This document shows, one piece after another, positions 13,195 through 36,312 of a DNA stretch of 64,000 nt; within the stretch, counting starts at the first letter, position 1; every line of letters begins with the position of its first letter. The DNA is from Desmonostoc muscorum LEGE 12446 (GTDB lineage Bacteria > Cyanobacteriota > Cyanobacteriia > Cyanobacteriales > Nostocaceae). The notes beneath the pieces are model-generated. The model was given only the letters and a program-made list of their open reading frames with translations. It was not told where the DNA came from and made no database searches. The position numbers and the translations under genes were made by a program. The stretch spans positions 7,215,001-7,279,000 of the forward strand of contig NZ_JADEXS020000001.1 of the NCBI RefSeq assembly GCF_015207005.2, given 5' to 3'.

Positions 13195-13204
13195 ATGACT
13201 AATA
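13150..13204. repeat. ATGACCA/ATGACTA heptamer repeat overlapping the PfaA-like start
   Basis: Units such as AATGACCAATGACTAATGAC run into the coding sequence, so the first in-frame ATG (13195) is itself part of the repeat. The array may place translation starts in a variable-length repeat. Confidence 0.75.
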
Positions 13205-16200
13205 GTGAAGATAAAGTCATGGCTGCTTCTAGAATTGAAGCTGTTTTGGCACAGTTGCAAGAGGAAGTGAGCAATTGTGAACAGGCTGTACTCAAACTCA
13301 TACAGGGAAAAAAAATTATGGTTGAGAATGCACCATTAAATAGCAAAATCAACACACAGCGGCAACAAGTTGATATCGCTATCATCGGCATGGCTTCTAT
13401 ATTCCCGCAATCCAAAAATCTACAGGAATACTGGGAAAAAATCATTCATAAAGTTGATTGTATTACTGATGTTCCTCCTTCACGTTGGAACATAGATGAT
13501 TATTACGATCCTAACCCTAGAACACCTGATAAAACCTACTGTAAAAGAGGCGGATTTATCCCGGATGTTAATTTCAATCCGATGGAATTTGGGCTACCAC
13601 CCAATATTTTGGAAGTTACAGATATTTCCCAGTTGCTAGGTTTGATTGTTGCTAAAGCAGCGATGGAAGATGCGGGTTACGGCGAATCTCGACAGTTTAA
13701 TCACGAGGCTACTGGCGTAATCTTAGGTGTAGCACTAGGTAGACAGTTGGGGGTGCCACTGACTTCGAGAATGCAGTATCCAGTTTGGGAAAAAGCTCTT
13801 AAAAGTAGTGGTTTATCCGATGAGGATACACAAAAAATTATCGAGAAAATCAAAAGTGCATATGTGCAGTGGGAGGAAAACGCCTTCCCTGGTATGCTTG
13901 CAAATGTTGTTTCTGGACGCATTGCTAATCGCCTAGATTTTGGAGGGACTAACTGTGTTGTTGATGCCGCCTGTGCTAGTTCATTAGGTGCCCTGAAAAT
14001 GGCAATTAGTGAGCTAGCTGAACATCGCGCCGACATGATGCTGACTGGCGGAGTTGACACCGACAACTCAATTTTGGCGTATATGTGTTTCAGTAAAACT
14101 CCTGCTGTTTCGCCGGGTGAAAATGTCAAACCTTTCGATGCAGAATCTGATGGGATGATGTTGGGTGAAGGCGTGGGGATGTTAGTACTGAAACGCCTTG
14201 AAGATGCCGAACGAGATGGCGATCGCATTTATGCAATCATCAAAGGTATTGGTACTTCTAGCGATGGCCGTTATAAAAGCATTTACGCGCCGCGTCCAGA
14301 AGGCCAAGTCAGAGCATTACGCCGTGCTTACGAAGATGCCGGATTTTCCCCTGCTAGCGTCGGTTTGATTGAGGCACACGGCACCGGTACAATGGCTGGA
14401 GATCCAGCAGAATTTAGTTCAATCAAAGAAGTTTTTGGCGAAAATAATCCCAAAAAACAATATATTGCCTTGGGAACTGTCAAATCACAAATTGGACATA
14501 CAAAAGCGGCTGCGGGTGCGGCAAGTCTGATCAAAACAGCCTTAGCTTTGCACCACAAAGTATTACCAGCCACAATTAACGTCACCAAACCCCATCCTAA
14601 ATTAGATATTGATAATTCCCCATTTTATTTAAATACCGAAACCAGACCTTGGGTTACTAGCGATGACGAGCCAAGACGTGCAGGGGTGAGTTCTTTTGGC
14701 TTTGGTGGCACAAATTATCACGTCATTTTAGAAGAATACAAAACCCAAAGCGATCGCCCTTATCGTTTACACAAATCTGCTCAATCAGTGTTGCTATTTG
14801 CGTCAACACCCGAAGAATTGTTATCCCGTTGTCAAGCAACTAAAGACCAATTGCAATCCGATACGGGAGAGCGGCATTATGCAGAATTGATTGCCGCCTC
14901 TCAATCTTTAGATATTCCCGTCACAAATGCCAGACTTGGATTTGTTGCCGATTCTCTCACTCAAGCTTGTAACTTATTGCAAACAAGTATTGATTTGCTG
15001 AAAAACAAACTGCAAGCAAAATCTTGGGAGCATCCCCAAGGAATTTACTACCGCAAAACTGGCATAGTCACAGAAGGAAAAGTAGTTGCTCTATTTTCTG
15101 GACAAGGCTCACAATATTTAGAGATGGGTCGGGAACTCGCAATCAATTTTCCTTCCTTGGGACAGACTTATACTCAAATTGACAGCCTTTTACGCCAAGA
15201 TGGTTTACACGGTGTTTCAGAGGTTGTTTTCCCAGCGCCTGTGTTCGATTTAGATCAAAAAACTGCCCAGATGAAACTGTTGCAGCAAACAGAATATGCA
15301 CAGCCAGCGATTGGGGCTTTTAGCGCTGGTTTGTACAAGATATTGCAACAAGCTGGATTCAAAGCGGATTTTGTCGCAGGTCATAGCTTTGGAGAACTTA
15401 CCGCTTTATGGGCTGCGGGGGTTTTGAGTGAGGAAGATTACTTTTTCCTGGTGAAAGCTAGGGGTCAAGCGATGGCTACGCCAACAGATCCCCAGTTTGA
15501 TGCAGGAGCTATGTTAGCGGTGAAAGGGGATGTCAGTCAGGTTACAGAACTAATTGAGAGTTTTCCCGAAATCAGCATTGCTAACTTGAATTCCCAAAAT
15601 CAAATGGTGTTAGCTGGGACAAAAGCTGAAATTGCTAATGTGGAGGAAGCTCTAAAAACTCAAGGATTCTCTACAATTTTGTTGGGAGTTTCCGCAGCTT
15701 TTCACACTTCACTAGTGGCTTATGCACAGCAACCTTTTGCTAAAGCAATTGAGAAAGTTAATTTCAAAGAGCCACAAATCCCGGTTTACACCAATGTGAC
15801 CGGAAAACGTTACCCAGACGAAGCGCAAGTTATTCAAAAAGTCCTCAAAGAACACTTGAGAAATCAAGTATTATTCAAACAGGAAATTGAAAATATTTAT
15901 GCTGAAGGCGGTTACTGCTTTGTTGAATTTGGCCCGCGAAGCGTTCTCACCAACTTAGTAAAAGATATTTTGGGCGATCGCCCTCATTTAGCTGTAGCCT
16001 TAAATCCCAGTCACCTCAAAGATAGCGATCGCTCTTTAAGAGAAGCTGTTGTCCAGTTGCGCGTTGCTGGATTATCTTTACAAAACTTAGACCCCTATCA
16101 ACTTGAGCAGAAAATCCCAGAAGTTTCTCCCAATAAGGTTTTGAATGTCCGCTTAAATAGCACTAACTATGTGTCAGAAAAAACCAAGCAGTCCTTTGAA

Positions 16201-19200
16201 AAAGCTATGCAAAATGGGCATCAAGTGAAATTTACTGCTACTAACGGCAATACACCGCACTCGCCAACACCCTCTCAAATAACAGAGAAAGTAGCAGTTA
16301 ATGGTCAATCTACTGTTACTAATGGCAATAACCATAACTCAGTAACATATAACCCTCCTCTACCAACAGAGAAAGTAACACTTAATGGTGGAGCGAAATC
16401 TGTGCAGAACGGGCAATCAGACCTCAAATCTTTACAAACTAGCCCAGAACTTCCTCTAAATTACCTCACAGCTATAGACAACTTAGAGTACACATTAATA
16501 GAATTCAATCGCCATCAACATGACATCTTGCAGGTTCATGAACAATCTTTAAAGCATCAGACAGAATATACCAAAACCTTCTTCCAACTCATGGAACAAC
16601 AACATGGTTTGTGGGGAAATAGTAAGTTTAACGAGTCACCAACACCAACAAAGGAACTGATAGTATCGAGTTCAGAACGTAGCATCATACGGTTTCATGA
16701 CCATCAAGGTGAAAGCCTCCGCATCCATGAGCAATATCTGAACTATCAGCAAGAATACACTAACAACTTTTTCCAATTGCTCCAGCGGCATTATCAACTA
16801 CCATCTTCTAGCAATACTACTCAGCAAAGTCTAATAGCACCAGTCAACTATCAAGATAGTCCTAAAGTTCCATCATCCCCACAAGACAATCTTGTTCTGA
16901 AAAATGCATCAGTTAGTCTACCCAGCAACGGATTCGCCAGCAAATCTGAGTCAGTTTTAACTAATGGTAACGGCACAAGTAACGGCGCAAATCATCAAGC
17001 AATAGCAGTTCTAGATATTACTCCACCACAAGAGAATCAAACCGTAACTGCAACGCAAATATCTGCTCCAGCAACTCTGGATATTACTCCACCACAAGAG
17101 AATCAAACCGTAACGGTAGCACCCCCAGCACCAGTAGTCATTGACCAAGTTACCCTGAGTCAAACTCTGCTGAACGTCGTTAGTGATAAAACAGGCTACC
17201 CAACCGAGATGTTAGACCTAACGATGGATATCGAAGCAGATTTGGGGATTGATTCCATCAAACGCGTAGAAATTCTGGGAGCATTGTTAGAACTATACCC
17301 CGATTTGCCCAGACCAAATCCCGAAGAAGTGGGACAGCTACGCACTCTGGCTCAAATAACTGAGTACATGGTGAAAATCGCATCAGACATCTCAGCTGGT
17401 CTTGCACCGGCGATCGCAGTAGGGAGAGATGAGGGAGCAGGGGGAGATGAGGGAGATGGGGGGGTAGGAGTAATATCGCCCTCATCTCCCTCATCCCCCT
17501 TATCCCCCTCATCTCCCTCATCCCCCTCATCCCCAGAACTTACTAACAATTTTCTCAAGGTCGTTAGCGATAAAATGGGCTATCCAACCACGATGTTGGA
17601 TCTGTCAATGGATATCGAGACAGATTTGGGAATTGATGGCGTCAAACTTGTGGAAATTCAGGGAGGATTGTCAGAACTATACCCCGATCTACCCAAGCTG
17701 AATGCAGAAACACTGGCTCAAGTGCATACTCTTGGACAACTTGTTGAATATCTACAAGAGGGACTAGGGACTGGGGACTGGGGACTAGGGACTGGGAAAG
17801 AGTTTTCTCAATTTCCAATCCCCAGTACCCAATCCCCAGTACCCAATACCCAATCCCGAATTCTTCGCAGTCCCGTCAGACTGAAATATCTTCCCGAACC
17901 TGATGTTTTAGATTTCGCCTTACCCGATGAGCATATCGCCTTGCTTACCGATGATGGTTCTCTCATCACGGCGGAACTTGCTCAGAGTTTGTGCAAGCGT
18001 GGTTGGAAAATTGTTGTCTTAACTTTTCCCCAAAGTTTGATTCCTCAACGATCGCCTTTACCTGAAGAGATTAGTCGCGTGGTGCTTGCAGATTTGAGCG
18101 AGGAGCATTTGCAAGAACAGTTAGGAGCGATCGCAATTAACTATGGTAAAGTCGCTGCGTTTATCCATCTCAATCCTTCAAGTCACGAAGCTACCAGTAA
18201 TGAAGTCCGCTATTTGGAATCAGAAAAAGCTATCCTTCGCCACGTCTTTCTGATTGCCAAATATCTTAAAGAGCCACTCAATCAAGCAGCGAGTCAAGGA
18301 CGCAGTTGTTTTGTAACTGTAGCTCGTCTTGATGGTCAGTTCGGACTGGGACAAAAAACCAACTTCGGTGCAATTGGCGCTGGATTATTTGGACTGACCA
18401 AAACTTTGAACCAGGAATGGGAAAGTGTATTTTGTCGAGCGATCGACCTCAGTCCTGATTTAGATCCTCAAACATCAGCACAGCATATCTTCGCCGAACT
18501 TCACGACCCCAATCTATTGGTCGTCGAAGCCGGATATAGTTCACAAGGACGAGCAACCCTAGTTTGTGAACAGGGATTAGGGACTAGGGACTGGGGACTA
18601 GGGACTGGGGAAGAGTTTTCCCAATCCCCAGTACCCAATCCCCAATCGCAAGTTTTTCTCGTAAGTGGCGGTGCCAAAGGAATAACGGCTCAATGCGCGA
18701 TCGAGCTAGCGCAGCGTTATCAATGCAAATTTATTCTGCTAGGTCGTTCTGCTGCCGATCCTCAACCGGTGTGGGCAGAAAAGTACTTGAGTCAAGCAGA
18801 TTTGAAAAAGCAGATTATGGAGGATTTCCTAGCTAGAGGTGAAAAGCCGACACCTGCAATGGTGCAGAAAAAGTTTAACGCTATTTCATCTAGTCGGGAA
18901 ATTGCCGCAACCTTACAAGCTATTGAGCAGGCGGGTGGACAAGCTGAATATTTGAGCGTTGATGTGACTGATGGATTGGCTCTTTCTGAACAAGTTGCTG
19001 ATGTAGTTGAGCGTTTTGGTGCGGTAACAGGAATTATTCACGGGGCTGGTAACCTAGCCGATAAGCGGATTGAGAAAAAATCAATCCAAGATTTTGAAAC
19101 AGTTTACACTGCTAAAGTTAAAGGTTTAGAAAACCTGCTGCGCTGCGTCTCGCCGAATCAATTGAATTACTTAGTTCTGTTTTCTTCCGTAGTTGGCTTC

Positions 19201-20346
19201 TACGGAAATGTGGGACAATCGGATTATGCGATCGCTAATGAAATTCTCAACAAATCAGCCCACCTTTTCAAACTCAATTATCCCAATTCTCATGTCGTAG
19301 CAATTAATTGGGGTCCTTGGGATAGTGGTATGGTTTCTCCGGAATTAAAGCAAGCTTTTGCTGAACGGAATATCGAGACTATTCCCATTGAAATTGGCAC
19401 AAAAATGTTAGCTGATGAACTAGCTAGCGCTAATCAAGAAACCGTGCAAGTTGTGATTGGTAGTCCCTTGGTATATATCCCAGATAAATTACCAAGCGAG
19501 TTGAAAACATTTCGTATCCACAGGCATCTAACATTAGCAGCAAATCCATTTTTACAAGACCACGTAATTGCTGGTTATCCAGTTTTACCAGCGACTTGTG
19601 GACTCTTATGGATTGCTAATACCTGCGAACAACTCTATCCTGGTTTCAAAGCCTTCAGTTGTACAAACTATAAAGTTTTAAAGGGACTAATTTTCGATGA
19701 AAATTTACCAAATGAATACACTTTAGATTTGCAAGAAATTGCTAAAAATGGTATCTCTGAAATAGACTTTGATGCCAAAATCTGGAGTAAAAATTCAGAG
19801 GGTAAAATACGTTATCATTTCAGTAGTCAAATGAAACTAAAGCGGGAAGTTCCTGGTGCCCCAGTACACGAATTTATCAACTTAAGCCAGGATCATAAAA
19901 TCACCGCCACCGCTTCATCACTTTATCAAAATGGGGCAACTACTTTATTTCACGGAGCTACTTTTCAAGGTGTCAAATCCGTCTTAAATGCCAATCTCGA
20001 CAAGATCACCATAGAATGCTATCTGCCAAAGCCTGGAGAAAGGCAACAAGGACAATTCCCAGTACAAACATTTAATCCCTATATTGCAGATGTGGAGATT
20101 CATGCATTTTGGATTTGGGCACAACATTTTCATCAGGTAGCTTGCTTACCTTCAGAAATCACAAACTTTGAACAGTTTGTACCTGTCCCATTTGATGAAA
20201 CATTTTACGTTTCATGTCAAATCAAATCTAAGACAGAATCGAGTTTAGTTGTTGATGTCATCGCCCATAATCAGCAAGGACAAATATATACCCGAATGCT
20301 AGGAGCCAAAGGAACTATTTTGCCCAAGCAATTAGATGAAATCTAA
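13195..20346 (+). CDS. PfaA-like multidomain polyketide/PUFA-type synthase (KS-AT-ACP-ACP*-psiKR/KR-DH)
   Basis: The 2383-residue protein builds an acyl chain by repeated condensation. Domains: KS at about 58-515 (Cys260 in DAACAS, His395 in EAHGTGT, His435 in QIGHTKAAAG); AT at about 628-950 (Ser731 in GHSFGE, His837 in AAFHTS); ACP1 near 1317-1392 (Ser1354 in GIDSIKRVEI); ACP2 near 1445-1520, where GIDGVKLVEI has Gly1482 instead of the phosphopantetheine Ser; psiKR about 1560-1790; KR about 1815-2090 (LVSGGAKGIT, Tyr2011 in YAIAN); and a C-terminal hotdog DH about 2105-2370 (His2123 in DHVIAGYPVLP). Two similar helical repeats lie between AT and ACP1. The layout resembles PfaA of omega-3 synthases and HglE-type proteins. 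Three palindromic repeats encode linkers. The ATG at 13219 is an alternative start. Confidence 0.92.
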   Translation: MTNSEDKVMAASRIEAVLAQLQEEVSNCEQAVLKLIQGKKIMVENAPLNSKINTQRQQVDIAIIGMASIFPQSKNLQEYWEKIIHKVDCITDVPPSRWNIDDYYDPNPRTPDKTYCKRGGFIPDVNFNPMEFGLPPNILEVTDISQLLGLIVAKAAMEDAGYGESRQFNHEATGVILGVALGRQLGVPLTSRMQYPVWEKALKSSGLSDEDTQKIIEKIKSAYVQWEENAFPGMLANVVSGRIANRLDFGGTNCVVDAACASSLGALKMAISELAEHRADMMLTGGVDTDNSILAYMCFSKTPAVSPGENVKPFDAESDGMMLGEGVGMLVLKRLEDAERDGDRIYAIIKGIGTSSDGRYKSIYAPRPEGQVRALRRAYEDAGFSPASVGLIEAHGTGTMAGDPAEFSSIKEVFGENNPKKQYIALGTVKSQIGHTKAAAGAASLIKTALALHHKVLPATINVTKPHPKLDIDNSPFYLNTETRPWVTSDDEPRRAGVSSFGFGGTNYHVILEEYKTQSDRPYRLHKSAQSVLLFASTPEELLSRCQATKDQLQSDTGERHYAELIAASQSLDIPVTNARLGFVADSLTQACNLLQTSIDLLKNKLQAKSWEHPQGIYYRKTGIVTEGKVVALFSGQGSQYLEMGRELAINFPSLGQTYTQIDSLLRQDGLHGVSEVVFPAPVFDLDQKTAQMKLLQQTEYAQPAIGAFSAGLYKILQQAGFKADFVAGHSFGELTALWAAGVLSEEDYFFLVKARGQAMATPTDPQFDAGAMLAVKGDVSQVTELIESFPEISIANLNSQNQMVLAGTKAEIANVEEALKTQGFSTILLGVSAAFHTSLVAYAQQPFAKAIEKVNFKEPQIPVYTNVTGKRYPDEAQVIQKVLKEHLRNQVLFKQEIENIYAEGGYCFVEFGPRSVLTNLVKDILGDRPHLAVALNPSHLKDSDRSLREAVVQLRVAGLSLQNLDPYQLEQKIPEVSPNKVLNVRLNSTNYVSEKTKQSFEKAMQNGHQVKFTATNGNTPHSPTPSQITEKVAVNGQSTVTNGNNHNSVTYNPPLPTEKVTLNGGAKSVQNGQSDLKSLQTSPELPLNYLTAIDNLEYTLIEFNRHQHDILQVHEQSLKHQTEYTKTFFQLMEQQHGLWGNSKFNESPTPTKELIVSSSERSIIRFHDHQGESLRIHEQYLNYQQEYTNNFFQLLQRHYQLPSSSNTTQQSLIAPVNYQDSPKVPSSPQDNLVLKNASVSLPSNGFASKSESVLTNGNGTSNGANHQAIAVLDITPPQENQTVTATQISAPATLDITPPQENQTVTVAPPAPVVIDQVTLSQTLLNVVSDKTGYPTEMLDLTMDIEADLGIDSIKRVEILGALLELYPDLPRPNPEEVGQLRTLAQITEYMVKIASDISAGLAPAIAVGRDEGAGGDEGDGGVGVISPSSPSSPLSPSSPSSPSSPELTNNFLKVVSDKMGYPTTMLDLSMDIETDLGIDGVKLVEIQGGLSELYPDLPKLNAETLAQVHTLGQLVEYLQEGLGTGDWGLGTGKEFSQFPIPSTQSPVPNTQSRILRSPVRLKYLPEPDVLDFALPDEHIALLTDDGSLITAELAQSLCKRGWKIVVLTFPQSLIPQRSPLPEEISRVVLADLSEEHLQEQLGAIAINYGKVAAFIHLNPSSHEATSNEVRYLESEKAILRHVFLIAKYLKEPLNQAASQGRSCFVTVARLDGQFGLGQKTNFGAIGAGLFGLTKTLNQEWESVFCRAIDLSPDLDPQTSAQHIFAELHDPNLLVVEAGYSSQGRATLVCEQGLGTRDWGLGTGEEFSQSPVPNPQSQVFLVSGGAKGITAQCAIELAQRYQCKFILLGRSAADPQPVWAEKYLSQADLKKQIMEDFLARGEKPTPAMVQKKFNAISSSREIAATLQAIEQAGGQAEYLSVDVTDGLALSEQVADVVERFGAVTGIIHGAGNLADKRIEKKSIQDFETVYTAKVKGLENLLRCVSPNQLNYLVLFSSVVGFYGNVGQSDYAIANEILNKSAHLFKLNYPNSHVVAINWGPWDSGMVSPELKQAFAERNIETIPIEIGTKMLADELASANQETVQVVIGSPLVYIPDKLPSELKTFRIHRHLTLAANPFLQDHVIAGYPVLPATCGLLWIANTCEQLYPGFKAFSCTNYKVLKGLIFDENLPNEYTLDLQEIAKNGISEIDFDAKIWSKNSEGKIRYHFSSQMKLKREVPGAPVHEFINLSQDHKITATASSLYQNGATTLFHGATFQGVKSVLNANLDKITIECYLPKPGERQQGQFPVQTFNPYIADVEIHAFWIWAQHFHQVACLPSEITNFEQFVPVPFDETFYVSCQIKSKTESSLVVDVIAHNQQGQIYTRMLGAKGTILPKQLDEI
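17421..17535 (+). repeat. In-frame G-rich/C-rich palindromic repeat in the ACP1-ACP2 linker
   Basis: A G-rich arm (GGGAGATGAGGGAG units) followed by a C-rich arm (CCCTCATCTCCCTCATCC units) can fold into a long hairpin. It is read in frame as a Gly/Asp/Glu stretch and then a Ser/Pro stretch (SPSSPSSPLSPSSP). Similar repeats occur between genes at 55087-55145 and 56697-56907. Confidence 0.8.
17760..17857 (+). repeat. In-frame GGGACTGGGGACT palindromic repeat between ACP2 and psiKR
   Basis: The G-rich arm GGGACTAGGGACTGGGG and the C-rich arm CCAATCCCCAGTACCC flank the loop core AGAGTTTTCTCAA. It is translated as GLGTGDWGLGTGKEF then IPSTQSPVPNTQS. The same element recurs at 18573 and, as a non-coding copy, near 56697. 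Confidence 0.85.
18573..18647 (+). repeat. Second in-frame GGGACT palindromic repeat, between psiKR and catalytic KR
   Basis: The arms and the loop core AGAGTTTTCCCAA are shared with the copy at 17760. It is translated as GLGTRDWGLGTGEEF then SQSPVPNPQS. It sits exactly at the boundary between the structural and catalytic KR halves, where an added linker is tolerated. Confidence 0.85.
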
Positions 20347-20369
20347 ATAGAACCAGTTAAAAAACGGTC

Positions 20370-20426
20370 GTTGCTGAATCCTTCTCCCTCTGCGCCTCTG
20401 CGTGACCCTTTCCCCGATTCAGCAAC
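20370..20426. repeat. 57-bp MITE-like element with 11-bp terminal inverted repeats
   Basis: GTTGCTGAATC at the left end and GATTCAGCAAC at the right end are perfect inverted repeats around a CTCTGCGCCTCTGCGTGACCC core. It sits in the gap between the PfaA-like and PfaB-like genes and is a probable non-autonomous element. Confidence 0.7.
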
Positions 20427-20463
20427 ACCAAAAAATCCATAAATCAGCTTGAGGAGATAGGTG

Positions 20464-23400
20464 ATGGAAGAATTTGCAAAAAATAAAACTCCTAAAATAG
20501 CAATTGTGGGAATGGATTGTTATTTAGGCGGCGGTTGCAAAGGATTAGATACCTTTGAACGCAGTATTTATGAAGGAACTCAGCATTTTATTCCCATACC
20601 TCCTCAGCGATGGCAAGGAATAGAAACACAAGAAGAGTTCCTGAAAAACTATGATTTTGCCGACGGTGCAGCACCATTAGGCGCATACATTAAAGATTTT
20701 GAAATTGATACTTTACGTTTAGAAATCCCACCAGAAGATGTAGAGAATTTTAATCCTCAAGAATTGTTGATGCTTGAAGTAGCCGATCGCACTTTAAAAG
20801 ATGCGGCACTTCCTCAAGGAAAAAGAATAGCAATTATTATTGTTACAGCTACAGAATTGACTATAAATCAACTTCCGAAAACAGATATTGATAAAGACAG
20901 TGAATCTCCAAGTTACATCGAAAACAACCTGGCTAATTATATTTCCAAAATATGGAATTTTGCTGGACCTGCCTTCACATTAACTGCCGAAGAAAATTCT
21001 GTTTTTAAAGCCTTGGAACTTGCACAAAAACTACTCGCTATTAGAGAAGTAGATGCTGTTTTAGTTGGTGCAGTCGAGCTTGCTGGAGATGGCGCTAGTG
21101 TTTTATTAAGAAATAAAATCACAAAAGTCAACACAGGCGTAAATACTCTCAGTTACGATGAAAATGTCAATGGCTGGATAGTAGGCGAAGGTGCAGCGGC
21201 TGTAGTATTGAAGCTCCACGAAACAGCGAAACAAGAAAATAATCGCATCTATGCAACGATTGATGCTCTCAGTCTCGTAGAGAATTCAAAATTTGAAATT
21301 GATGCTTTGAATGTGCCAATTTCTGAAGCAGTAACACAAGCTTGTAAAGTAGCTTTTGAGCTTGCAAATATCAAACCAACAGATATTAATTATTTAGAAG
21401 TTGTTGCTAGTGGAATTCCACACCAAGATGAATCAGAAATTCAAGGTTTGATTCAGGCATATCGCACATCTGAAGTAAATTTAACTTGTGCGATCGGTAG
21501 TGTCAAAGCGAATATTGGTCATACCTATGCTGTATCGGGAATAGTTAGTTTAATTAAAACAGCATTGTGTTTATATCACCGCTATATTCCCGCAGTTCCC
21601 CAATGGTCTAAACCCAAAATGCCAGAGGTTTGGCAAGATAGTCCTTTTTATATTGCTCTTGAATCAAAACCTTGGTTTTTAGAAAAAGGAGGTATTAGAA
21701 GAATAGCTGCGATTAATGGGATGGAGGTAGATGGAAGTTACACACATTTAATTTTGTCAGAGGAACTATATCAAAAAAATCACAGCAGCAAATATTTACA
21801 GCAAATGCCTTATTATTTATTTGCGATCGCTGCTGACGATCAATCAACTTTATTAGAAGAAATCGGCAATCTTCAAGAAAGTATTAAAAATTCTTCTTCT
21901 CTATCTACTGCTGCTAGCCAGACTTTTGCAACTTTTCAACAGCGTCAACAAGCGACTTATGCTGTAGCAATTCTCGGACACAATCAAGATGAATTACAGC
22001 GAGAAATTCAGCATTCCCTCAAAGGTATTACTAATGCTTTCGAGACAGGGAAAGACTGGCAAAGTCCTTTAGGCAGCTATTTTACAGCAAAACCACTGGG
22101 ACAAAAAAGTAAAATCGCTTTCGTTTACCCAGGTGCTTTTAGTGCTTATCTCGGACTAGGCCGAAATCTGTTTCGTTTGTTTCCTCAACTTTATAACGAT
22201 CCGTTCATCGGTAGTATTTATCAGCGTGTCGCCAACGTAGAAAAACTTATTTATCCCCGAAGCTTAGAAAAATTATCAAACAGACAACTAGAAGCTCTTG
22301 AAAAACAATTGCTCAATGATTCAGTAGCAGTACTCGAATCAGAAATGGCCTGTGCTGGACTGATGACAGCAATTTTGAAAAATTATTTTCAAGTCAAGGC
22401 TGAATGTGCTTTTGGTTATAGTCTGGGCGAAATTAGCATGATATTGGCTCAGGGTATCTGGACTCAGTTTCAAGAAGGTAGCGAGGGCTTTAACTCATCA
22501 TCTCTGCTGAAGACAAGACTATCTGGCCCGAAAAATGCTGTGCGGGAGTATTGGGGATTATCTCAAAGAGAGGATGAGAAAAACGAAGATTTCTGGCGCA
22601 ACTATATTCTGATGTGTCCAGTATCTCGGGTTAAAGAAGCGATTAAGCATGAAAAGCGGGTTTATTTGCCTTTAATTAATACTACAGAAGAAGTGGCGAT
22701 CGCTGGTGATATCCAAGCCTGTCAGCGCGTAATTGCCAATCTCAATTGTGATGCTTTTTCTGCTCCCTTCACCCATGTTATCCATTGCGAGCCAATGTGT
22801 TCTGAGTACGATGAACTTGTGAGATTGAATACATTCCCTACTCAAAACGTACCAGAAACTATCTTTTATTCCGCAGCCGAGTATAAACCAATTAAACTAG
22901 ACAGCCATTCTATTGCTCACAATATTGCTAAAAACCTGTGTCAGCAGCTTAATTTTCCTCAATTAATTAACCGTGTTTATCAAGATGGGTTCAACATATT
23001 CATCGAAGTAGGTGCTGGTAGCAACTGTTCTCGATGGATTGATAAAGTCCTCAACCAAAAAGAACACATCACAGTAACTCTTAATAAAAGAGGTATAGAC
23101 GATCATACTTCTTTCATTAAAGCTTTAGCAAAATTGCTTAGTTATAGAGTTAATCTAGATTTATCACTACTATATTCTCAGGTACAAGAAGTTTCCCAAA
23201 AAAGCCAATCTAGAGCTAGAAATATAACTCTAGATAGCAGCAAAATTAATTACACATCTTTGAGTAAGCACAATCAAAAAATTGCTCAAGATATATCTTT
23301 ACATACCATCAAAAATGTGAATCAACACGAATATACACTACCAACCTTAAAGGAATTTGCACCCATGAATCCTTCTTTTACAGAAAGTCCTATCAAAAAT

Positions 23401-27397: not shown

Positions 27398-27488
27398 AGG
27401 ACTTACGCAAAATTATGAAAAAACGAACCGCAAAGGACGCAAAGGGCACAAAGAAATAAGAGTTTTAGAGGGTTTTTGCGTAAGTCCT
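27398..27488. mobile_element. 91-bp MITE-like element before the ACP gene
   Basis: The terminal inverted repeats AGGACTTACGCAAAA and TTTTGCGTAAGTCCT are perfect over 15 bp. The core holds the GAACCGCAAAGGACGCAAAGG motif family common in cyanobacterial genomes. It has extended an upstream open frame, so the longer start of the ACP is spurious. Confidence 0.85.
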
Positions 27489-27515
27489 ATATCTAATGAA
27501 TTTAAAGGTGTGAAA

Positions 27516-27821
27516 ATGAGCCAGTCTATTCCTGAAACAATCAAAAAACAGTCTTATAGCGCAGAAGAAATTCAAGCTTGGTTAGTCTCTCATATTGCAG
27601 AGCAGCTAGGAGTTGAACCTAAAGATATAGATGTACGACAGCCTTTAGATAGTTACGGTTTAGAGTCAGCACAGGCAATGTTTCTTGTTAGCAAAGCGGA
27701 GAAGTTATTTGGTTTTGAGCTATCTCCAATTTTATTGTGGCACTACCCCACTATTGAAACATTGTCTGTGCGTTTAGCGGAAGAATCTAAAGCTTCACAG
27801 TCTGAAATTTTTGAGATTTAA
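27516..27821 (+). CDS. Stand-alone acyl carrier protein
   Basis: The 101-residue protein has the ACP core with the phosphopantetheine Ser in YGLESAQAM (LES rather than LDS) near residue 50, after the helix-1 motif [20 protein letters not shown]. Start: the ATG at 27516 has AAAGGTG seven bases upstream. The longer open frame from 27339 is made by a MITE and is not homologous. It would carry an acyl chain to the following HHxxxDG transferase or to the diiron enzyme. Confidence 0.85.
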
Positions 27822-27859
27822 ACTTCAAAGCTGCTCTTGAACAGACATCAAAAGTAAAA

Positions 27860-29182
27860 ATGATTTACAACAGAAAGCTGGGACGCCTTGAACAGGCTAT
27901 GGAAATTTTAAATAGCCGTGCTAAAACCTGGAACATAGTTACTATTAGTCGTATCAATGGCTGTATCTATGAAGAAACTATGAGAGAGGCTTTAGACATG
28001 ATTCAGTGTCGCCATCCTCGTCTTAATTCTCGAATTGTGCGTTCTAAGAATAGTCTCAGCTTTCAAACTCAAGAAACAGCAAATATTCCTTTACGTTTTG
28101 TCAAATTGTTAGAGAATAACCAGTGGCAAAAAGTTGTTTATGAAGAGATGAACCAGGGAATTGATAGTAGTAAAATCCTACTACGAGTGGTTCTTGTCCA
28201 TGTTTTGGAGGATGTTCCTATAAACTATTTGATAACAACAGTACATCATGCGGTCGCAGATGGTTTATCATGCATCCGACTTCATTCAGAAATCTTAACT
28301 TTTTGTCAAAAAATTGTCTCGGGTGAACCAATTAATTCAGTTCCTAGCTTAACTCCACTTCCACCCATCGAAGAACTAATGCCTGAATGGACTAAGGGGT
28401 TCACAGGTAAGATAAACAGCACAATATTTTTGTTGCAGCTTGGATTACAAGAAATCTGGAATCGACCAAAAACATTAGGTTTTGAAAAGTATGTGTCTAT
28501 TGGAAAGCGTAGTTCCAATATTATCCACAGACAACTTGACCAAGAATTAACCCAAAAGCTTGTAAATTGTTGTAGGCAAGAAAATACAACAGTACACAAT
28601 GCTTTATGTGCTGCAATGATGTTGACAGTAGCTAGAACAATCACTAAAGGTCATAGAAAAGATATACGAGTAAATTGCCTATCATATCTTGATTTGAGAA
28701 GACATTTAGAACCTGCAATTAGTGATGAAGATCTGGCTGTATTAGCCTCATCCATTATGGGATTTCACCTCATAAAATCAAACAGTTCCTTCTGGGAGTT
28801 AGCTAGAGAAGTGAAATATAAGCTGGAAGCGAGTAAAAATCACGGTGATCTCTTTAGAATGATTTTAATCGCCAAGCATCTGATTGATATTTGTTGTATT
28901 TATCCCAAAAAAATAGCTGCCACAGTGTCTGTTTCTAATGTTGGCAAAATTAATATACCCAAAAATTACGGTAAATTTGAACTCGAAGAAATCAGTTTCA
29001 TCAGTTCTAATGCTTTTTTTGCAGGTATTTTTGCTATCCATGTTTCCACATTCCAAGAAAAAATGCTGTTGAATTTTGCATTTTCTCAACCTTCAATTAG
29101 CTCCAATACTATGGAGGATCTTGTAAATAATCTCATGTCCTATATTTCTGGTATTTGCGAATTAAATTGTGATTCTTCTTAA
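27860..29182 (+). CDS. Condensation-domain-like acyltransferase (HHxxxDG)
   Basis: The 440-residue protein has one condensation/PapA-like fold. The HHxxxDG motif is at 129-135 (HHAVADGLS). The second half contains the NALCAAMMLTVART helix and ISNVGKI-like SVSNVGKINI strand near residue 360. Such proteins form ester or amide bonds between an ACP-bound acyl group and a hydroxyl or amine; PapA5-type enzymes esterify lipid diols. No adenylation or carrier domain is attached, so it is free-standing. The gene follows the ACP by 38 bases. I infer that it releases or decorates the polyketide by esterification. Confidence 0.82.
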   Translation: MIYNRKLGRLEQAMEILNSRAKTWNIVTISRINGCIYEETMREALDMIQCRHPRLNSRIVRSKNSLSFQTQETANIPLRFVKLLENNQWQKVVYEEMNQGIDSSKILLRVVLVHVLEDVPINYLITTVHHAVADGLSCIRLHSEILTFCQKIVSGEPINSVPSLTPLPPIEELMPEWTKGFTGKINSTIFLLQLGLQEIWNRPKTLGFEKYVSIGKRSSNIIHRQLDQELTQKLVNCCRQENTTVHNALCAAMMLTVARTITKGHRKDIRVNCLSYLDLRRHLEPAISDEDLAVLASSIMGFHLIKSNSSFWELAREVKYKLEASKNHGDLFRMILIAKHLIDICCIYPKKIAATVSVSNVGKINIPKNYGKFELEEISFISSNAFFAGIFAIHVSTFQEKMLLNFAFSQPSISSNTMEDLVNNLMSYISGICELNCDSS

Positions 29183-29338
29183 AGTTATTAAATTATGAAT
29201 ATTTAATGATTAAAATATAGCTTATTTTGCTCCTATTAGCACGATATGGGGTAGCTAATTCTGATTCCTAAATTAATCAATCATGGTGGAATAAGCTGAG
29301 AAATTAAAAGTTTAAAACAATTAGGAGATTATGAAACT

Positions 29339-31219
29339 ATGAACGTATCAGAACTTGTAGAAAACCTGATAAAACAGGGTGTTCATTTGTGGGTTGATGA
29401 TAACGAAAAATTAAAGATTCGCTCACCAAAAGGAGTAATTACGTCAGAAATTCAGGAAAAAATAGTTGCTTATAAATCAGAAATTGTGGCATTTCTGCAC
29501 GATATAGACGTAGCTAAAGATTTAGAGTCTGTCCCTTTAAGCCAGGGATTAAATCTACAAACTATAGGTCGTTTAATTGGTGGATTTGCTGAGCAATTAT
29601 CTGTGGAGTATAAGCCACCAATTATTGATCCTAAAATTATGGCTCAAAAGCTAATAGTTACATTTAAACCTTTACCTAGTAGTTACAATAATCAAGAAAT
29701 TCTCAACTTTCGCCAAGAACTAAAAGAGAAACTGAGAGATTATGGTGTCAAAATATTATCTTGGGAGGAAGCGATCGCAGAATTTAATTATGACCTGATG
29801 CTGCCAATAATTAACAAAAAGAAAAATTTTAAATTTAAGGGAGTTAAATCAGAAGTCAATGCAATTATTGATGTAGAAATACCTCCTTCTTTCATCAGGA
29901 GATTGGGCATCATTGTAGCAGAATTTGTCTACCAAATTTATTCTAGCTTAATCTTAAATGAGCGAAAACTTCCTGTAATAAAAATAGCTAGATTGAGCAG
30001 TTGGGCTGAGGATTATGCAGCTAAATATGTTGATAATCCTAGCAAAACACAAGTAATTGTAATTACGAAGATAGACCATGATTTTATCAATCCTGTCATT
30101 CCATATAAACAAAAGATAAATATTGGTTTAAATACTTTAATTAGAACATTCTCCGAAATTGTCATTGGAGTATCATCAGACAAAATTTCCATATTAAATA
30201 TGAATCTGTCAGATTCTATTTTTACAAGAAATGAGATTAGTAATTTTGTTTTAAAATCACTAATTCCTAAAGTATTTGTACCAATTGCTCCACTTTTACT
30301 AAGTAGATTTGAAGTAGAGCAGTATAATCCTCAAGAATCTATCTATGCTGCAAAATTAGTCAAATTAGGTCAAGAGTTAGCATCAACGGGTTTATTTCCT
30401 CCTGGTTTTAAGCTGGATCAAGTTATTAAAAGAAAGTCCCATAGAGATATAGTCAGTATTATTATAAATGGTAGGACGGGAGTTTCTTATGGTTTTGTCG
30501 CTTATGCTGAACCACCACAATATTTTGGGGAACCACAAATAAGCAAAAATGATTGGGAAAATCTATTACCTATTAAAGGATTTAATAATAATGAAATTCG
30601 TCAAAATGACAAGGGAAGACGTTATGTCAAAATCAAAAAAGCAGAAGAATATGTATTTAGACAAATACCAGATATTTGGCTTGTAAGTTCTCGGTCAGGT
30701 TCAAACAAAACAGATTTGAATATCGCTGACGATGTTATCAGAATTGGTTTGAAAGAAAAACTATATCTCCAACTACCTAAAGTCATTCGTTCGGAGCTAG
30801 TAGACATGAAACCTTCTTATGATATCTATGTCATGCTTGCCATCAGTCTTTCTGCTGCTTTATATACACCAGAATTAATCAAAAATGGTGCGCCAATTGT
30901 TCATTTCCACGGCTATCCAGCATTCGATTGGTTTCAAGCAAATGAATACTGCGTTGGAGTAGATAATCCTTCTGTACCTTGTGGAACTTATGAATCTGGG
31001 GTATTCAATTTTCTAGGTATTTCTAGCTTAGCTAATCAACAAGCAAGCAACATATCTTTAGTTAGTTTGATAGAACCAGATCATGGCGCAAATTTTATAG
31101 CTCATGATTTAGAATATTTAGTTCAAAGATTGAAAGATGGGTGTACACAGGGACAAATTGAACTAGGTGGAAAACATTTTACTTCTCTGAAATCTAAGAT
31201 AGAAGAATGCAGAATTTAA
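29339..31219 (+). CDS. TubC-type docking domain fused to a protein of unknown function
   Basis: The 626-residue protein begins with a typical TubC N-terminal docking domain (residues about 1-55: NVSELVENLIKQGVHLWVDD, then LKIRSPKGVITSEIQEKI). Such domains recruit assembly-line proteins through short C-terminal tails. The remaining about 570 residues are not recognised; I found no Walker, ACP, KS or HHxxxDG motif. Notable stretches are RQNDKGRRYVKIKKAEEYVF, a LNIADDVIRIGLKEKLYLQLP region and VHFHGYPAFDWFQANEYCVG with VPCGTYESG near 525-550. The HFHGYP and PCGTYESG parts look like a conserved active site. The ATG is preceded by TAGGAGA. The gene is 157 bases after the acyltransferase. It may be a new tailoring enzyme; function unassigned. 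Confidence 0.8.
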   Translation: MNVSELVENLIKQGVHLWVDDNEKLKIRSPKGVITSEIQEKIVAYKSEIVAFLHDIDVAKDLESVPLSQGLNLQTIGRLIGGFAEQLSVEYKPPIIDPKIMAQKLIVTFKPLPSSYNNQEILNFRQELKEKLRDYGVKILSWEEAIAEFNYDLMLPIINKKKNFKFKGVKSEVNAIIDVEIPPSFIRRLGIIVAEFVYQIYSSLILNERKLPVIKIARLSSWAEDYAAKYVDNPSKTQVIVITKIDHDFINPVIPYKQKINIGLNTLIRTFSEIVIGVSSDKISILNMNLSDSIFTRNEISNFVLKSLIPKVFVPIAPLLLSRFEVEQYNPQESIYAAKLVKLGQELASTGLFPPGFKLDQVIKRKSHRDIVSIIINGRTGVSYGFVAYAEPPQYFGEPQISKNDWENLLPIKGFNNNEIRQNDKGRRYVKIKKAEEYVFRQIPDIWLVSSRSGSNKTDLNIADDVIRIGLKEKLYLQLPKVIRSELVDMKPSYDIYVMLAISLSAALYTPELIKNGAPIVHFHGYPAFDWFQANEYCVGVDNPSVPCGTYESGVFNFLGISSLANQQASNISLVSLIEPDHGANFIAHDLEYLVQRLKDGCTQGQIELGGKHFTSLKSKIEECRI

Positions 31220-31977: not shown

Positions 31978-31998
31978 ATATTGGAAAGGAGCAAATTA

Positions 31999-33366
31999 AT
32001 GTTTTTGAATAATTTCTTCAAAACATCTGAGCAGTCCAGCAAATTTTTAGGAGAGGAAAAAATTACATTACGAGAAAAACAAAACAGAACTTTAAACGCA
32101 GATGTAAAATCTGTTCTGTATTATAGAACCTGGATTCAGACTACAACTAATAATACTTTCGATAGCACCCGAATATTAGGAATAGTTGCAACTACTAAAG
32201 GAGCCGAAAATTATTTACCTTATACTATCCCTAAAATCATTAAACAAATCTCGAAAATAGGGATGGCGGCTGATATAGTCATTGGTTTAAATAATGGCTT
32301 TGAATGTCCGGCTGTTATAGAGAGTTTTATTTTGCTGCCAAATGTCCAAATCATTCATCTATATACTGAGGAAAAGTTAGCAAACAATATTCCAGCACCA
32401 ATATTTGACAATTTGATGTGCCAAGGCAAACCATATTGTTTAACTAATATTCACCCTCACCAATACAAACATAGAATATTTGTTGTCCATCAAAAACCGG
32501 GGCAACACTCAGCAGGCAAAATTCGAGTTCTGGGAGATATTTATGCTTCATTACTGCTTAAAAGTATCGAACATGGATGGATACCACCGACTATTTTGAT
32601 GACTTTTGATGCTGAATCTCAGTTTTTAGTGGCGCATAATTATTCAGATATAGATCTAGAGTCCAATGGCTTAAAATTTATGGTAAGTCAACTGCAAAAT
32701 CATCCTCAAATCGATATTTTAGGTACAAGGAATAAGTTCGCTGTTTACCAAAAAGCAATGGTAAATGGAATTGAAGTTTTACTGCCTGATTTTAGTGAAC
32801 AACTGCCTCCTATCCAATGGTTTATAGATATCGTTCATGGTAGATTTAGCGGCTTTCAGTGTAAATGGGGAGGAGGCACATTTGGTAAAACTGATGTGAT
32901 AGTTAGCTTGTTAGTAGTGATTTCTAGAAATTATCCAGGTGTCAGAACTGAAGATACTCAACTCACTATCTTAGCTAAGTATGCAGGCTTTATAGGTGAC
33001 ATATTTTTAGATGTGATTTCTACGAACAGAACTCCTAGTATAACGGATATGACAATAGAACAGCCACAAAAAAAAGCTTGGATAGAACAAATATATAGAT
33101 GGTTAGCTTCTGTTCAGGGATTAAAATTACTTTATGGAGAACATAATATGAAAATGTTTGTAAATGACGGTTTTCCTTGGTTTACGTTGACTAATCCAAC
33201 TAAGTTTTTGAAATTGTTAATAGCTAGTAGAAAGAGCAGTATTTCTTCAAAAATTTATCAGCTTAAATTGATAATTAATGCGTTTTATAATTATCAAACA
33301 ATAAAAACTTGTAGTAAAAAGAAACCTGATATATTACAAGGCAGTGAAGCAAAAGCTTTTTGGTAA
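31999..33366 (+). CDS. GT-A-type glycosyltransferase-like protein
   Basis: The 455-residue protein opens its core with ILGIVATTKGAENYLPYTIP, as expected for the first strand of a GT-A fold. It has MTFDAESQFLVA with a DxE-like metal motif near residue 205, a GGGTFGKTDV loop near 297 and RTEDTQLTILAKYAGF near 320, which resembles the acceptor-side ED motif of GT2 enzymes. No membrane helix is evident. Start: ATG at 31999 with GGAAAGGAG at 31982-31990. It would add a sugar to a lipid or to another acceptor from the cluster. The family (GT2-like) is tentative. Confidence 0.65.
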   Translation: MFLNNFFKTSEQSSKFLGEEKITLREKQNRTLNADVKSVLYYRTWIQTTTNNTFDSTRILGIVATTKGAENYLPYTIPKIIKQISKIGMAADIVIGLNNGFECPAVIESFILLPNVQIIHLYTEEKLANNIPAPIFDNLMCQGKPYCLTNIHPHQYKHRIFVVHQKPGQHSAGKIRVLGDIYASLLLKSIEHGWIPPTILMTFDAESQFLVAHNYSDIDLESNGLKFMVSQLQNHPQIDILGTRNKFAVYQKAMVNGIEVLLPDFSEQLPPIQWFIDIVHGRFSGFQCKWGGGTFGKTDVIVSLLVVISRNYPGVRTEDTQLTILAKYAGFIGDIFLDVISTNRTPSITDMTIEQPQKKAWIEQIYRWLASVQGLKLLYGEHNMKMFVNDGFPWFTLTNPTKFLKLLIASRKSSISSKIYQLKLIINAFYNYQTIKTCSKKKPDILQGSEAKAFW

Positions 33367-33554
33367 AAATTCCAAATTCAGTGGGAAATATGACGTAGAG
33401 TCTTAGTTTATTTGATTTAAATTATCAAATTGTGTCAAGAGAGCATAAAATTCTCCAAAAATAGATAGCAAATAACTTCTAAACCAACTATTATGTAGAG
33501 CTTAAATTTCTGAAATAATTTGACAGCAACAGGATAAGGTTTAAGGTGTTTATC

Positions 33555-34442
33555 ATGACAACTTTAGCAGCTAAAACAGTACTTTTGACAGGTGCATCAC
33601 GCGGTTTAGGAGTATATATTGCTCGCGCTCTAGCTAGAGAGCAAGCAACTGTGCTTTGCGTTTCTCGTTTTAAGTCAGGACTAGATACAACATGTGCTCA
33701 AATCAAAGCTTTGGGTGGAAAAGGGATAAGTATTCCCTTTGATATTAAAAACGTGACAGAATTATCAAATCTCAAACAGCAAATTAATAAACTTGCTGGA
33801 CCAGTAGATATTATAATTAATAATGCTGGCATAGAAATTTACCGAGATTTTGTTGATTATTCTCTAGAGGATCTCCAGTCAATATTGACAATTAATCTAC
33901 TCGCTGCTGTTGAATTAACCCGTTTGTTTCTGCCAAGTATGTTGGAACGGCGTACTGGTCACATTGTTAATATTGCTTCTCTAGCTGGTAAAAAGGGAGT
34001 CCCTTACAACAGCATTTATTCTGCTAGTAAAGCTGGTTTGATTATGTGGACTGATGCTATGCGACAAGAACTAGCTGCTACTGATACTAATATCTCGGTA
34101 ATCTGTCCAGGATATATCTCTGAAACTGGTATGACTGTTAATAGTCGCGTATCTGCTCCTTGGTTAGCAGGTACATCTACACCAATAGATGTAGCAAATG
34201 CAGTAATTAGAGCTATTAAACAAAACAAAGCAGAGATAATTGTTAATCAAAATTCGCTAACAGCAAATATGACTAAACTAATGTTTGCTATTGGCCAATT
34301 TTGCCCAGAATTTGTAGATAGAGTTTATCATTGCTTGGACATAGTTAAGCTTAACCGCAGGCGTGTAAATGCGAAAATTTTTGCCACAGATCATATAAAT
34401 GTGCCAATTGATCATTATGGAATACGTCACAAAAAGAGTTAA
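33555..34442 (+). CDS. HetN-like short-chain dehydrogenase/reductase, without the RGSGR motif
   Basis: The 295-residue protein has the SDR signature: TGASRGLGVYIA (nucleotide binding), NNAGIEIY, catalytic Ser in NIASLAGKK and YSASK. It looks very close to HetN, the ketoacyl reductase whose RGSGR motif inhibits heterocyst formation; for example KKGVPYNSIYSASKAGLIMW and CPGYISETGMTVNSRV match the HetN style from memory. At the place of the HetN ERGSGR hexapeptide this protein has ERRTGH (residues 131-136), so the inhibitory peptide is missing. I therefore predict it is a catalytic reductase of the lipid pathway and not a pattern inhibitor. I chose the ATG at 33555; a GTG at 33546 adds three residues. 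Confidence 0.85.
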   Translation: MTTLAAKTVLLTGASRGLGVYIARALAREQATVLCVSRFKSGLDTTCAQIKALGGKGISIPFDIKNVTELSNLKQQINKLAGPVDIIINNAGIEIYRDFVDYSLEDLQSILTINLLAAVELTRLFLPSMLERRTGHIVNIASLAGKKGVPYNSIYSASKAGLIMWTDAMRQELAATDTNISVICPGYISETGMTVNSRVSAPWLAGTSTPIDVANAVIRAIKQNKAEIIVNQNSLTANMTKLMFAIGQFCPEFVDRVYHCLDIVKLNRRRVNAKIFATDHINVPIDHYGIRHKKS

Positions 34443-34855: not shown

Positions 34856-35767
34856 ATGATATTTTTTACTTCCCCGCGTGTAAATCTTCCTTCTCCTCTT
34901 GTTGAACCACTTGATGATAACAACAGGATTATTAATTTGATTGCTGAAATTACTAATGAATCTGTTGAAATTGTTCGCCATAATCTAGAAGAAGAAGAAA
35001 TTCGCCTTGGTAGTAAACAAATCCGTGAATTTCATGACCAGGGTTTGTTACCCCATGTCTGGAGTGAAGAAATGAGCGAGTTTTACAATAATACAGATGC
35101 ATTTTTGTACAATTTGGTGGCGTGGAACCGTAATCATATTAAGCTACAAATGCGTGATTGGATCGGGAAGTATTTGAGCCGCGAAGAGAGTTCTGGTTTG
35201 GATATTCTCTGTTTAGGAGATGGGTTGGGCATTGATACTCTTTATTTGGCTCAGGCAGGACATAATGTTACTTATTATGATGTACCAGGCTATACCGAAA
35301 CATTTGCTCGTCGACTCTTTGAAGACTCTGGTTTGCCAGTATATATTGTTAATGATATTGAGGCAATTTCTAAAGAAGCTTATGATGTGGTTTTGTGCTT
35401 AGATGTGCTGGAACACGTTTCCAATCCACCCTCTTTTGTGGCTGAAATTTATGGCTATTTGCGATTTGGAGGAAGAGCTATTATCCATGCCCCGTTCTAT
35501 TTAGTTAATGAGAATCATTTGACACATCTGAAGTCAAATCAGAAGTATAGTGGCAGGTTGGATCTGTTTACCAAGCAGGGATTACATTTGGTTGATGGGC
35601 AACTTGGCTGGAACCCGATTGTACTTCGTAAAATTGACCAGAAAGCCCAACTGCCCAGTTTATGGAATTTACATTTGTGGGGTATTCAATTAATGGGACT
35701 GTATATTGCCATTACCACTCGTATGTGGGGAAATCCATTTTTCTGGATTATTCCGAAGAATAAATAG
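34856..35767 (+). CDS. Class I SAM-dependent methyltransferase
   Basis: The 303-residue protein has an N-terminal helical part of about 110 residues (possible substrate lid) and a Rossmann methyltransferase core. Motif I is ILCLGDGLGIDTLYLAQAG near residue 118, motif II acid is in TYYDVPG, and the later motifs are DVVLCLDVLEHV and GYLRFGGRAIIHAPF. A hydrophobic segment near the C-terminus (LMGLYIAITTRMWGNPFFW) may touch the membrane. It lies at the end of the cluster on the same strand. O- or C-methylation of the lipid or its sugar is inferred. Confidence 0.82.
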   Translation: MIFFTSPRVNLPSPLVEPLDDNNRIINLIAEITNESVEIVRHNLEEEEIRLGSKQIREFHDQGLLPHVWSEEMSEFYNNTDAFLYNLVAWNRNHIKLQMRDWIGKYLSREESSGLDILCLGDGLGIDTLYLAQAGHNVTYYDVPGYTETFARRLFEDSGLPVYIVNDIEAISKEAYDVVLCLDVLEHVSNPPSFVAEIYGYLRFGGRAIIHAPFYLVNENHLTHLKSNQKYSGRLDLFTKQGLHLVDGQLGWNPIVLRKIDQKAQLPSLWNLHLWGIQLMGLYIAITTRMWGNPFFWIIPKNK

Positions 35768-35952
35768 ACCTGTGTTGAAAATAGAGACTAGGAAATAGGG
35801 AGTGGGGAGAAAAAAGTGGCGATCGCTCTTCCAATGGATAAACCCATACCATCTCCAATTCTATAAAAGAAGCGATCGCTATTACAACTCGACAAGCGCT
35901 TAAAAAGAGAGTTTATTACGGCTTGTCAAGCAATTTTCTTAATCAAACTTGT

Positions 35953-36312
35953 ATGAATATGAACTTTAGTTGGAGCACATGGAGTTTCGTCTTCGCTGCT
36001 AGCATTAATACTTGCATTGGAAATCTGCTATTGAAGCGATCGCGCCTTGAAGCCCCCGACCCTGGTTTAGTATCATTGCTATTGTCCCCTTGGTTTATCA
36101 GCGGACTGGTTTTCTACAGCATAAATGTAGTGCTATTTGGCAAAGCATTAGATAAATTGCCAGTTTCAACGGCTTACCCTGTCTTCGCTGGGTTGGGATT
36201 TGGCTTGATTGCCATTACTGGAAGTTGGTTTTTTGGAGAACGCCTTGGTCTCAACCAATACGTTGGACTAGGAATAATTTTGATTGGAATCATTATCATG
36301 TCGCGTTCCTAA
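35953..36312 (+). CDS. Small multidrug-resistance/EamA-type membrane protein
   Basis: The 119-residue protein has four membrane helices, as in the SMR family (VFAASINTCIGNLLL, LVSLLLSPWFISGLVFYS, YPVFAGLGFGLIAITGSWFF, VGLGIILIGIIIM). SMR-like proteins export cations or flip lipid-linked sugars (ArnE/ArnF type). Its position after a glycosyltransferase and methyltransferase suits the second role, but that is inference. The ATG at 35953 gives the four-helix form; an upstream TTG at 35923 would add ten polar residues. Confidence 0.7.
   Translation: MNMNFSWSTWSFVFAASINTCIGNLLLKRSRLEAPDPGLVSLLLSPWFISGLVFYSINVVLFGKALDKLPVSTAYPVFAGLGFGLIAITGSWFFGERLGLNQYVGLGIILIGIIIMSRS

Follow-up and report, generated by a model that had tools for sequence, protein, structure and literature searches.

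A hgl-like island of Desmonostoc muscorum that joins a PfaA/HglE-type synthase to a CylC-related diiron protein and a TubC-domain protein

We analyzed a stretch of 64,000 nucleotides (the window) from Desmonostoc muscorum LEGE 12446, corresponding to G000:C1:7215001-7279000 within a genome of 9.6 Mb, and focused on a unit of eight genes on the + strand (13195-31219) that encodes a synthase related to those of polyunsaturated fatty acids (PUFA) and heterocyst glycolipids (HG), together with a putative oxidation module. By identity of the diiron protein, the closest named relatives of this locus were found in Nostoc sp. FACHB-973 (100%) and Desmonostoc geniculatum (99%). The domains of the unit include ketosynthase (KS), acyltransferase (AT), acyl carrier protein (ACP), ketoreductase (KR), dehydratase (DH), and chain length factor (CLF) types, and its genes were as follows.

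13195-20346, + strand: PfaA/HglE-type synthase, KS-AT-ACP-(ACP, Ser to Gly)-KR-DH (Pfam, TIGR02813)
20461-23745, + strand: CLF-like KS plus AT, scoring as PfaB (TIGR02816) and similar to the C-terminal half of HglC
23796-25454, + strand: PfaD enoyl reductase (TIGR02814)
25467-26765, + strand: CylC-related diiron protein of the Glu type, E117xxE120E121xxH124 and H272xxD275E276xxH279
26951-27250, + strand: 2Fe-2S ferredoxin (Fer2)
27516-27821 (listed open reading frame [ORF], 27339-27821), + strand: free ACP with the C-terminal tail SQSEIFEI (PP-binding)
27860-29182, + strand: PapA5-type acyltransferase with HHAVADG (Pfam PapA_C)
29339-31219, + strand: TubC protein, whole gene (TubC_N, predicted model, and fold matches)
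29339-29509, + strand: TubC docking hairpin (TubC_N; model and fold match)
29633-30292, + strand: CoaB-like middle part of the TubC protein (predicted model, fold match)
30326-31216, + strand: class II aldolase-like domain of the TubC protein (predicted model, fold match)

The PfaA-type synthase scored 2318 bits against TIGR02813 (cut-off, 1010) and the PfaD protein 667.8 bits against TIGR02814 (cut-off, 449), in agreement with the first-pass annotation, which had placed PfaA- and PfaD-like genes here. Its assignment of the second gene to PfaB held in part: the protein passed TIGR02816 with 147.8 bits (cut-off, 144.3), but inspection of the KS-like part by eye showed TAEENSV, with no Cys, where the KS of PfaA reads DAACASS. 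This sequence indicates a CLF-like domain, and the protein is therefore referred to as CLF-AT, resembling the C-terminal half of HglC. Its AT Ser was kept in all 48 loci with a match. In the second ACP of the PfaA-type synthase (residues ~1440-1560), Gly replaces the phosphopantetheine Ser (GIDGV). Among 44 loci with a match, this position was Ser in 29, Gly in 11, Ala in 3, and Arg in 1, indicating that the second ACP was lost repeatedly or in some branches. The PfaC protein of PfaABCD PUFA synthases consists of KS-CLF and DH. As had been claimed, no PfaC-type gene was present among the annotated ORFs of the eight-gene unit, and PfaC was likewise lacking in the hgl island of the same genome.

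Conservation of the unit was examined in 17 loci, namely the window and 16 contig loci retrieved with the diiron protein as the query. The presence of the diiron gene in this set is thus by selection, whereas that of the other genes is not. The PfaA, CLF-AT, PfaD, ferredoxin, ACP, and TubC genes were each present in 17 of the 17 loci, and a full-length diiron gene and the PapA gene in 16 each; the sole exception, L016, retains a fragment of the diiron gene and lacks PapA. This recurrence indicates that the gene set is not due to chance. The observation of the first-pass annotation, that a PUFA/Hgl-type synthase is joined to a diiron enzyme, a ferredoxin, a free ACP, and an acyltransferase, is confirmed. 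The ACP and the TubC protein were the most constant pair among the loci examined, so that the TubC gene, earlier termed an orphan, is not a stray one.

Three genes on the opposite strand lie upstream of the unit.

7729-8421, - strand: ABC ATPase (Pfam)
8447-9619, - strand: FtsX permease (Pfam; 60% identity to the gene beside the hgl island of the same genome)
9893-11098, - strand: HlyD adaptor (Pfam; 51% identity to the gene beside the hgl island of the same genome)

Of 34 relatives, 17 had an opposite-strand HlyD match upstream within the reach of their stretches, and the homologies indicate that the genes at 7729-11098 (- strand) are an HgdBC-type exporter belonging to the locus. The hgl island itself is located at ~7.348-7.364 Mb of G000:C1, 111 kb from the PfaD gene of the window, and contains HglE, a separate KR-DH protein, HglC, PfaD, HglB, and SDR genes plus FtsX and HlyD; single hgl gene names were assigned by homology and follow a table in PMC8073705. 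The window proteins matched this island, in line with the earlier choice of heterocyst glycolipid genes for comparison: identities were 64% between the PfaA-type synthase and HglE, 54% between the synthase and the HglE-end/KR-DH part, 53% between CLF-AT and HglC, 76% between the two PfaD proteins, and 62% over 80 residues between the free ACP and the ACP part of HglB. At E 1e-5, the hgl island yielded no match for the diiron, ferredoxin, PapA, and TubC proteins of the window or for a 461-aa protein encoded downstream. Conversely, HglB with its thioester reductase is missing from the window unit, which has only the free ACP followed by the PapA gene. According to the main text of PMC11804610, hgl-like islands (hgdCB and hglEAFGCA on five ORFs) are a widespread second island beside hgl whose product is unknown, and they are considered to have no role in forming heterocytes or akinetes. 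In the window, HlyD, FtsX, and the three synthase ORFs, five in all, match the hgl region of the same genome, and the island is additional to the larger hgl island. These sequence relationships indicate that the operon and its exporter are a hgl-like island, a published kind without a product.

We next consider the diiron protein. HxxDExxH and the remaining CylC metal-site residues are present, and the metal-site columns 89, 117, 121, 124, 272, 275, 276, and 279 are identical to those of CylC-type proteins. At the Glu120 position, all 58 readable members of the window family have ExxEExxH, whereas 63 of 63 relatives outside the family, among the matches listed, have Gln. This Gln of ExxQExxH is described as halogenase-specific in PMC12871659, and its change to Ala in NocO abolished chlorination as reported in PMC12101540. 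Because Glu replaces the halogenase Gln, C-H oxygenation appears likelier than chlorination or N-oxidation. The protein had been annotated as AurF-type, of which the oxidizing diiron type and the AurF fold, as predicted, stand: its best structure matches were AurF and CmlI, with a dimetal site in an AurF fold. However, its sequence is closer to CylC types than to AurF and reached no family in Pfam and NCBIfam, the AurF model included. Among its relatives, P0024 passed the AurF model with 30.5 bits (cut-off, 29.6) and P0045 stayed under the cut-off; precomputed labels gave PF28091, and for some relatives additionally PF11583 AurF. A search of PDB sequences with the diiron profile returned a chance match only. 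A DENFH stretch taken from a phmmer alignment as a candidate AurF DExxH motif was rejected because it is not conserved in the family. A true CylC-type halogenase concealed in window-type loci was also rejected, since ExxQExxH ORFs, sought in all six frames of 53 loci, turned up in only five of them, all of a different, ngl-type cluster described below.

Several observations concern related diiron and ferredoxin genes. The same genome encodes QExxH CylC-type and AurF-family proteins outside the window (G000:C1:147119-147445 and G000:C3:71773-72600; L104, L083). Proteins of 383-407 aa (P0045 and similar) extend the Glu-type diiron family to Candidatus Cyanaurora vandensis and to many metagenome proteins, which are short of ~40 mid-protein residues. 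The ferredoxin retains its six Cys in 20 of 20 loci with a match. At L070:9495-11268 (G452), where a HlyD-type gene lies upstream and the island synthase is missing, a ferredoxin gene begins 22 bases behind a diiron gene; the two may thus also have a role with ordinary fatty acids. At L072:8512-8987 (G528), ~44 kb from the complete pair, a partial second diiron and ferredoxin copy overlaps an RRXRR/HNH endonuclease ORF; it is probably a broken duplicate.

Furthermore, the diiron gene has a history of its own. The diiron proteins of 19 loci fell into two types that are ~67% alike. L011 and L012 side with the window lineage (90-92% to the window in PfaD, 84% in PapA, and 88-89% in TubC), and L013 and L014 belong to another lineage by the same three proteins. 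However, the diiron proteins of L011/L012 and L013/L014 are 88-89% alike across the lineages and 66-70% within their own. In the DNA, the switched part extends from ~25.4-25.5 kb to ~26.8-27.0 kb in window coordinates, nearly coinciding with the diiron gene (25467-26765); the ferredoxin was not co-transferred. In approximately unbiased (AU) tests, monophyly of the window lineage was rejected for the diiron tree (p 2.1e-8), and the grouping of L011-L014 was rejected for the tree of PfaD, ferredoxin, PapA, and TubC (p 3.6e-5); these values are too favorable because the groups were picked after the identities were known. The sequence comparisons indicate that the diiron gene alone was swapped between two island lineages, and this lone exchange suggests that it is the part that varies the product.

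The ferredoxin, the ACP, the HHxxxDG protein, and the TubC_N protein named in the first-pass annotation were all recovered by family matches. The ACP gene probably starts at the inner ATG at 27516, since the ORFs of relatives encode 101-108 aa. Its C-terminal tail was present in 53 of 53 loci and in none of five control ACPs. The HHxxxDG protein is PapA-type (HHAVADG); it matched PDB 8s6l (E 3.8e-27), and HHxxxDG was found in all 35 loci with a match. The N-terminus of the TubC protein gave both a family and a fold match to the TubC-type docking (bHD) domain. Residues 330-626 matched no Pfam family up to E 10, and structure prediction, on which the domain folds rest, supports a docking domain followed by CoaB-like and class II aldolase-like domains. 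D495, H522, H524, and H582 were kept in 53 of 53 loci, and they may correspond to the class II aldolase metal triad HxH...H plus an acidic residue. An origin of the protein as a nonribosomal peptide synthetase remnant was rejected, as it forms a family of its own; 558 proteins matched at E ≤ 0.001 among the candidates scored. The TubC protein would dock on the tail of the free ACP.

Gene set, conservation, motif difference, ACP tail, and diiron gene exchange are all established from the sequences, and they suggest the following pathway, in which we infer each catalytic step, the docking, and the export. The PfaA/CLF-AT/PfaD synthase would assemble a long reduced acyl chain and hand it to the free ACP, the counterpart of the HglB ACP without a thioester reductase. 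Supplied by its dedicated ferredoxin, the CylC-related diiron protein would then oxygenate the chain on the ACP at an unactivated C-H; the outcome is expected to be hydroxylation or desaturation rather than chlorination because the halogenase-specific Gln is Glu. The TubC hairpin would dock on the ACP tail, letting a metal site of the class II aldolase type act on the acyl-ACP, the PapA-type enzyme would form an ester in place of reductive release, and the HgdBC-type pump would export the lipid. We consider this scheme, a hgl-like island with an added oxidation module and its steps in the order proposed, moderately probable as a whole.

The island would instead make a chlorinated lipid if the diiron protein were a working dimetal-carboxylate halogenase, as its placement among the CylC clusters of PMC8406957 would imply. 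CylC types are its nearest characterized relatives by sequence, with the eight metal-site columns the same; the adjoining free ACP and ferredoxin suit ACP-bound chlorination, and those CylC clusters hold similar parts, and a LEGE strain (L010) carries a window-type island. However, the motif of ExxQExxH halogenases (PMC12871659 and PMC12101540) is ExxEExxH without exception in the readable members of the family, and we regard chlorination as rather unlikely. The structure matches to AurF and CmlI, the precomputed AurF label of some relatives, and the score of P0024 would agree with an AurF-type N-oxygenase and a product bearing an oxidized nitrogen, which the first-pass annotation had entertained. 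Yet the window protein itself reaches no AurF model and groups with CylC, AurF has Asp (D135) where the window protein has Glu120, and genes for an aminotransferase or an adenylation enzyme were not seen in the family annotation of the conserved unit. With a CylC rather than an AurF grouping and no nitrogen-adding gene seen, N-oxygenation is disfavored to the point of being highly improbable.

The homology of the synthase and exporter to hgl genes, and of the synthase genes to PfaA/B/D, might also mean that the island is a redundant or cell-type-specific heterocyst glycolipid or PUFA synthase with the diiron, PapA, and TubC genes as minor trimmings. We find this improbable: the unit has neither an HglB-type reductase nor PfaC, and the hgl island has no counterparts of the diiron, ferredoxin, PapA, and TubC genes. 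In the main text of PMC11804610, moreover, hgl-like islands are missing in some akinete formers, are the sole island in a strain without heterocytes, and have no link to HG structures.

Downstream of the TubC gene, four genes follow on the same strand.

31981-33366, + strand: 461-aa protein with no family match; homologues downstream in 8 of 17 stretches (lower bound)
33546-34442, + strand: SDR reductase; relatives behind the TubC gene in hgl-like and ngl-type loci
34856-35767, + strand: methyltransferase, in nearest relatives only
35923-36312, + strand: SMR transporter, in nearest relatives only

The earlier labels of reductase, methyltransferase, and SMR transporter were confirmed, but that of glycosyltransferase was not, as the 461-aa protein matched no family in Pfam and NCBIfam. 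Among the 17 stretches, many of which stop before this region so that the counts are lower bounds, an ABC transporter family was found in at least 11, SDR in 9, the 461-aa family in 8, SMR in 3, and the methyltransferase in 2. No SDR match was present in the downstream stretches L074-L078 and L080, indicating that an SDR gene behind the TubC gene is not universal. The methyltransferase and SMR transporter are probably outside the core. A 547-aa RTX-repeat protein adjoins the cluster (36520-38163, - strand), likewise in L001. Further downstream, the region 38793-42390 encodes a hybrid kinase and a sensor kinase whose N-terminus is ethylene-receptor-like; L009, L016, and L073 have homologous pairs close to the island, and these kinases are possible regulators.

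The TubC protein (54-58%), the tailed ACP, and the SDR (55-63%) also occurred in a different cluster in five of 34 loci (L064, L066-L069), which have a true ExxQExxH CylC-type ORF and no PfaD match. Family searches identified a FAAL, a fatty acid desaturase, and a KS-AT-ACP protein in L067, and a second KS without EAHGT was found in L064, L066, and L067. L079, which continues L066, encodes a CylK-like protein (7fh8, E 4.5e-103), two MGDG-synthase-like glycosyltransferases, a UDP-galactopyranose mutase-like protein, a methyltransferase, and an MFS transporter. This content fits the ngl cluster of Nostoc punctiforme (CylC and CylK homologues, FAAL, glycosyltransferase, epimerase, and KS*), for which the main text of PMC10849952 describes nostochlorosides with a C21 chain (palmitate plus five carbons) and a vicinal diol bearing 6-O-methylgulose. 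According to the same text, fatty-acid ester forms exist although no acyltransferase was found in the ngl cluster by the authors, and the odd-chain diol head is unexplained; neither "TubC" nor "aldolase" appears in it. The docked aldolase-fold protein, common to both cluster kinds, is a natural candidate for the head-forming step and may make or trim the odd-chain diol head. A bolder proposal, which we put forward tentatively and hold to be doubtful, is that the tailed ACP and the TubC protein form a general head-group module of cyanobacterial polyketide synthase (PKS) lipids, in which an aldolase-fold metalloenzyme on the last ACP would make or break an acyl C-C bond to yield an odd-chain vicinal-diol head. 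Hgl-like islands would then use an Hgl-type chain to make nostochloroside-like ether glycolipids, with the Glu-type CylC relative of the window group adding oxygen where ngl adds chlorine. If true, the docked protein would explain the nostochloroside head left open in the main text of PMC10849952.

Hgl-like islands are widespread in heterocyst-forming cyanobacteria and their product is left open in the main text of PMC11804610; one branch of them is now tied to a concrete enzyme set, and the TubC protein connects this branch to a pathway with a known product. The Glu-type CylC relative, the lone exchange of the diiron gene, the architecture of the TubC protein with the ACP tail, and the sharing with ngl loci are new. 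The conserved Glu-for-Gln family also provides a natural test of the role of one residue in diiron halogenases. The main text of PMC11804610 does not name the diiron, ferredoxin, PapA, and TubC genes ("aurf" and "acyltransferase" are absent from it), and in the open literature searched we found no paper linking hgl-like islands or hglE-KS with AurF-like proteins, or joining hgl islands with docking domains or TubC. Heterocyst glycolipids and docking domains are both mentioned in two papers, a review of efflux systems and one on a siderophore.

These comparisons place the island among known systems. The first-pass annotation knew of no described counterpart, which cannot be maintained: the island type is described in the main text of PMC11804610, and a CylC class with the same parts in PMC8406957, both without a product. 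In the latter source, nitronate monooxygenase-containing CylC clusters list PKSI, ferredoxin, ACP, or glycosyltransferase and, among Nostocales of the LEGE collection, combine a PfaD-type gene with a CylC homologue. Their proteins are regarded there as homologues of halogenases, but the halogenase Gln is missing from the window protein; the diiron-ferredoxin pair is an accessory to the hgl-like island and probably belongs to this CylC class. The hgl island of the same genome shares a homologous synthase, PfaD, and exporter with the window and differs in its HglB (ACP plus thioester reductase). The PapA-type protein of the window resembles PapA5 acyltransferases (PDB 8s6l) across ~410 residues and in HHxxxDG. 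The window has the tailed ACP, TubC protein, and SDR in common with the ngl-type loci, which differ in their FAAL-started modular PKS, true ExxQExxH CylC-type protein, and CylK-like protein (in L079), a set (CylC and CylK homologues, FAAL, and modular PKS) that is present in the ngl-type loci and absent from the window.
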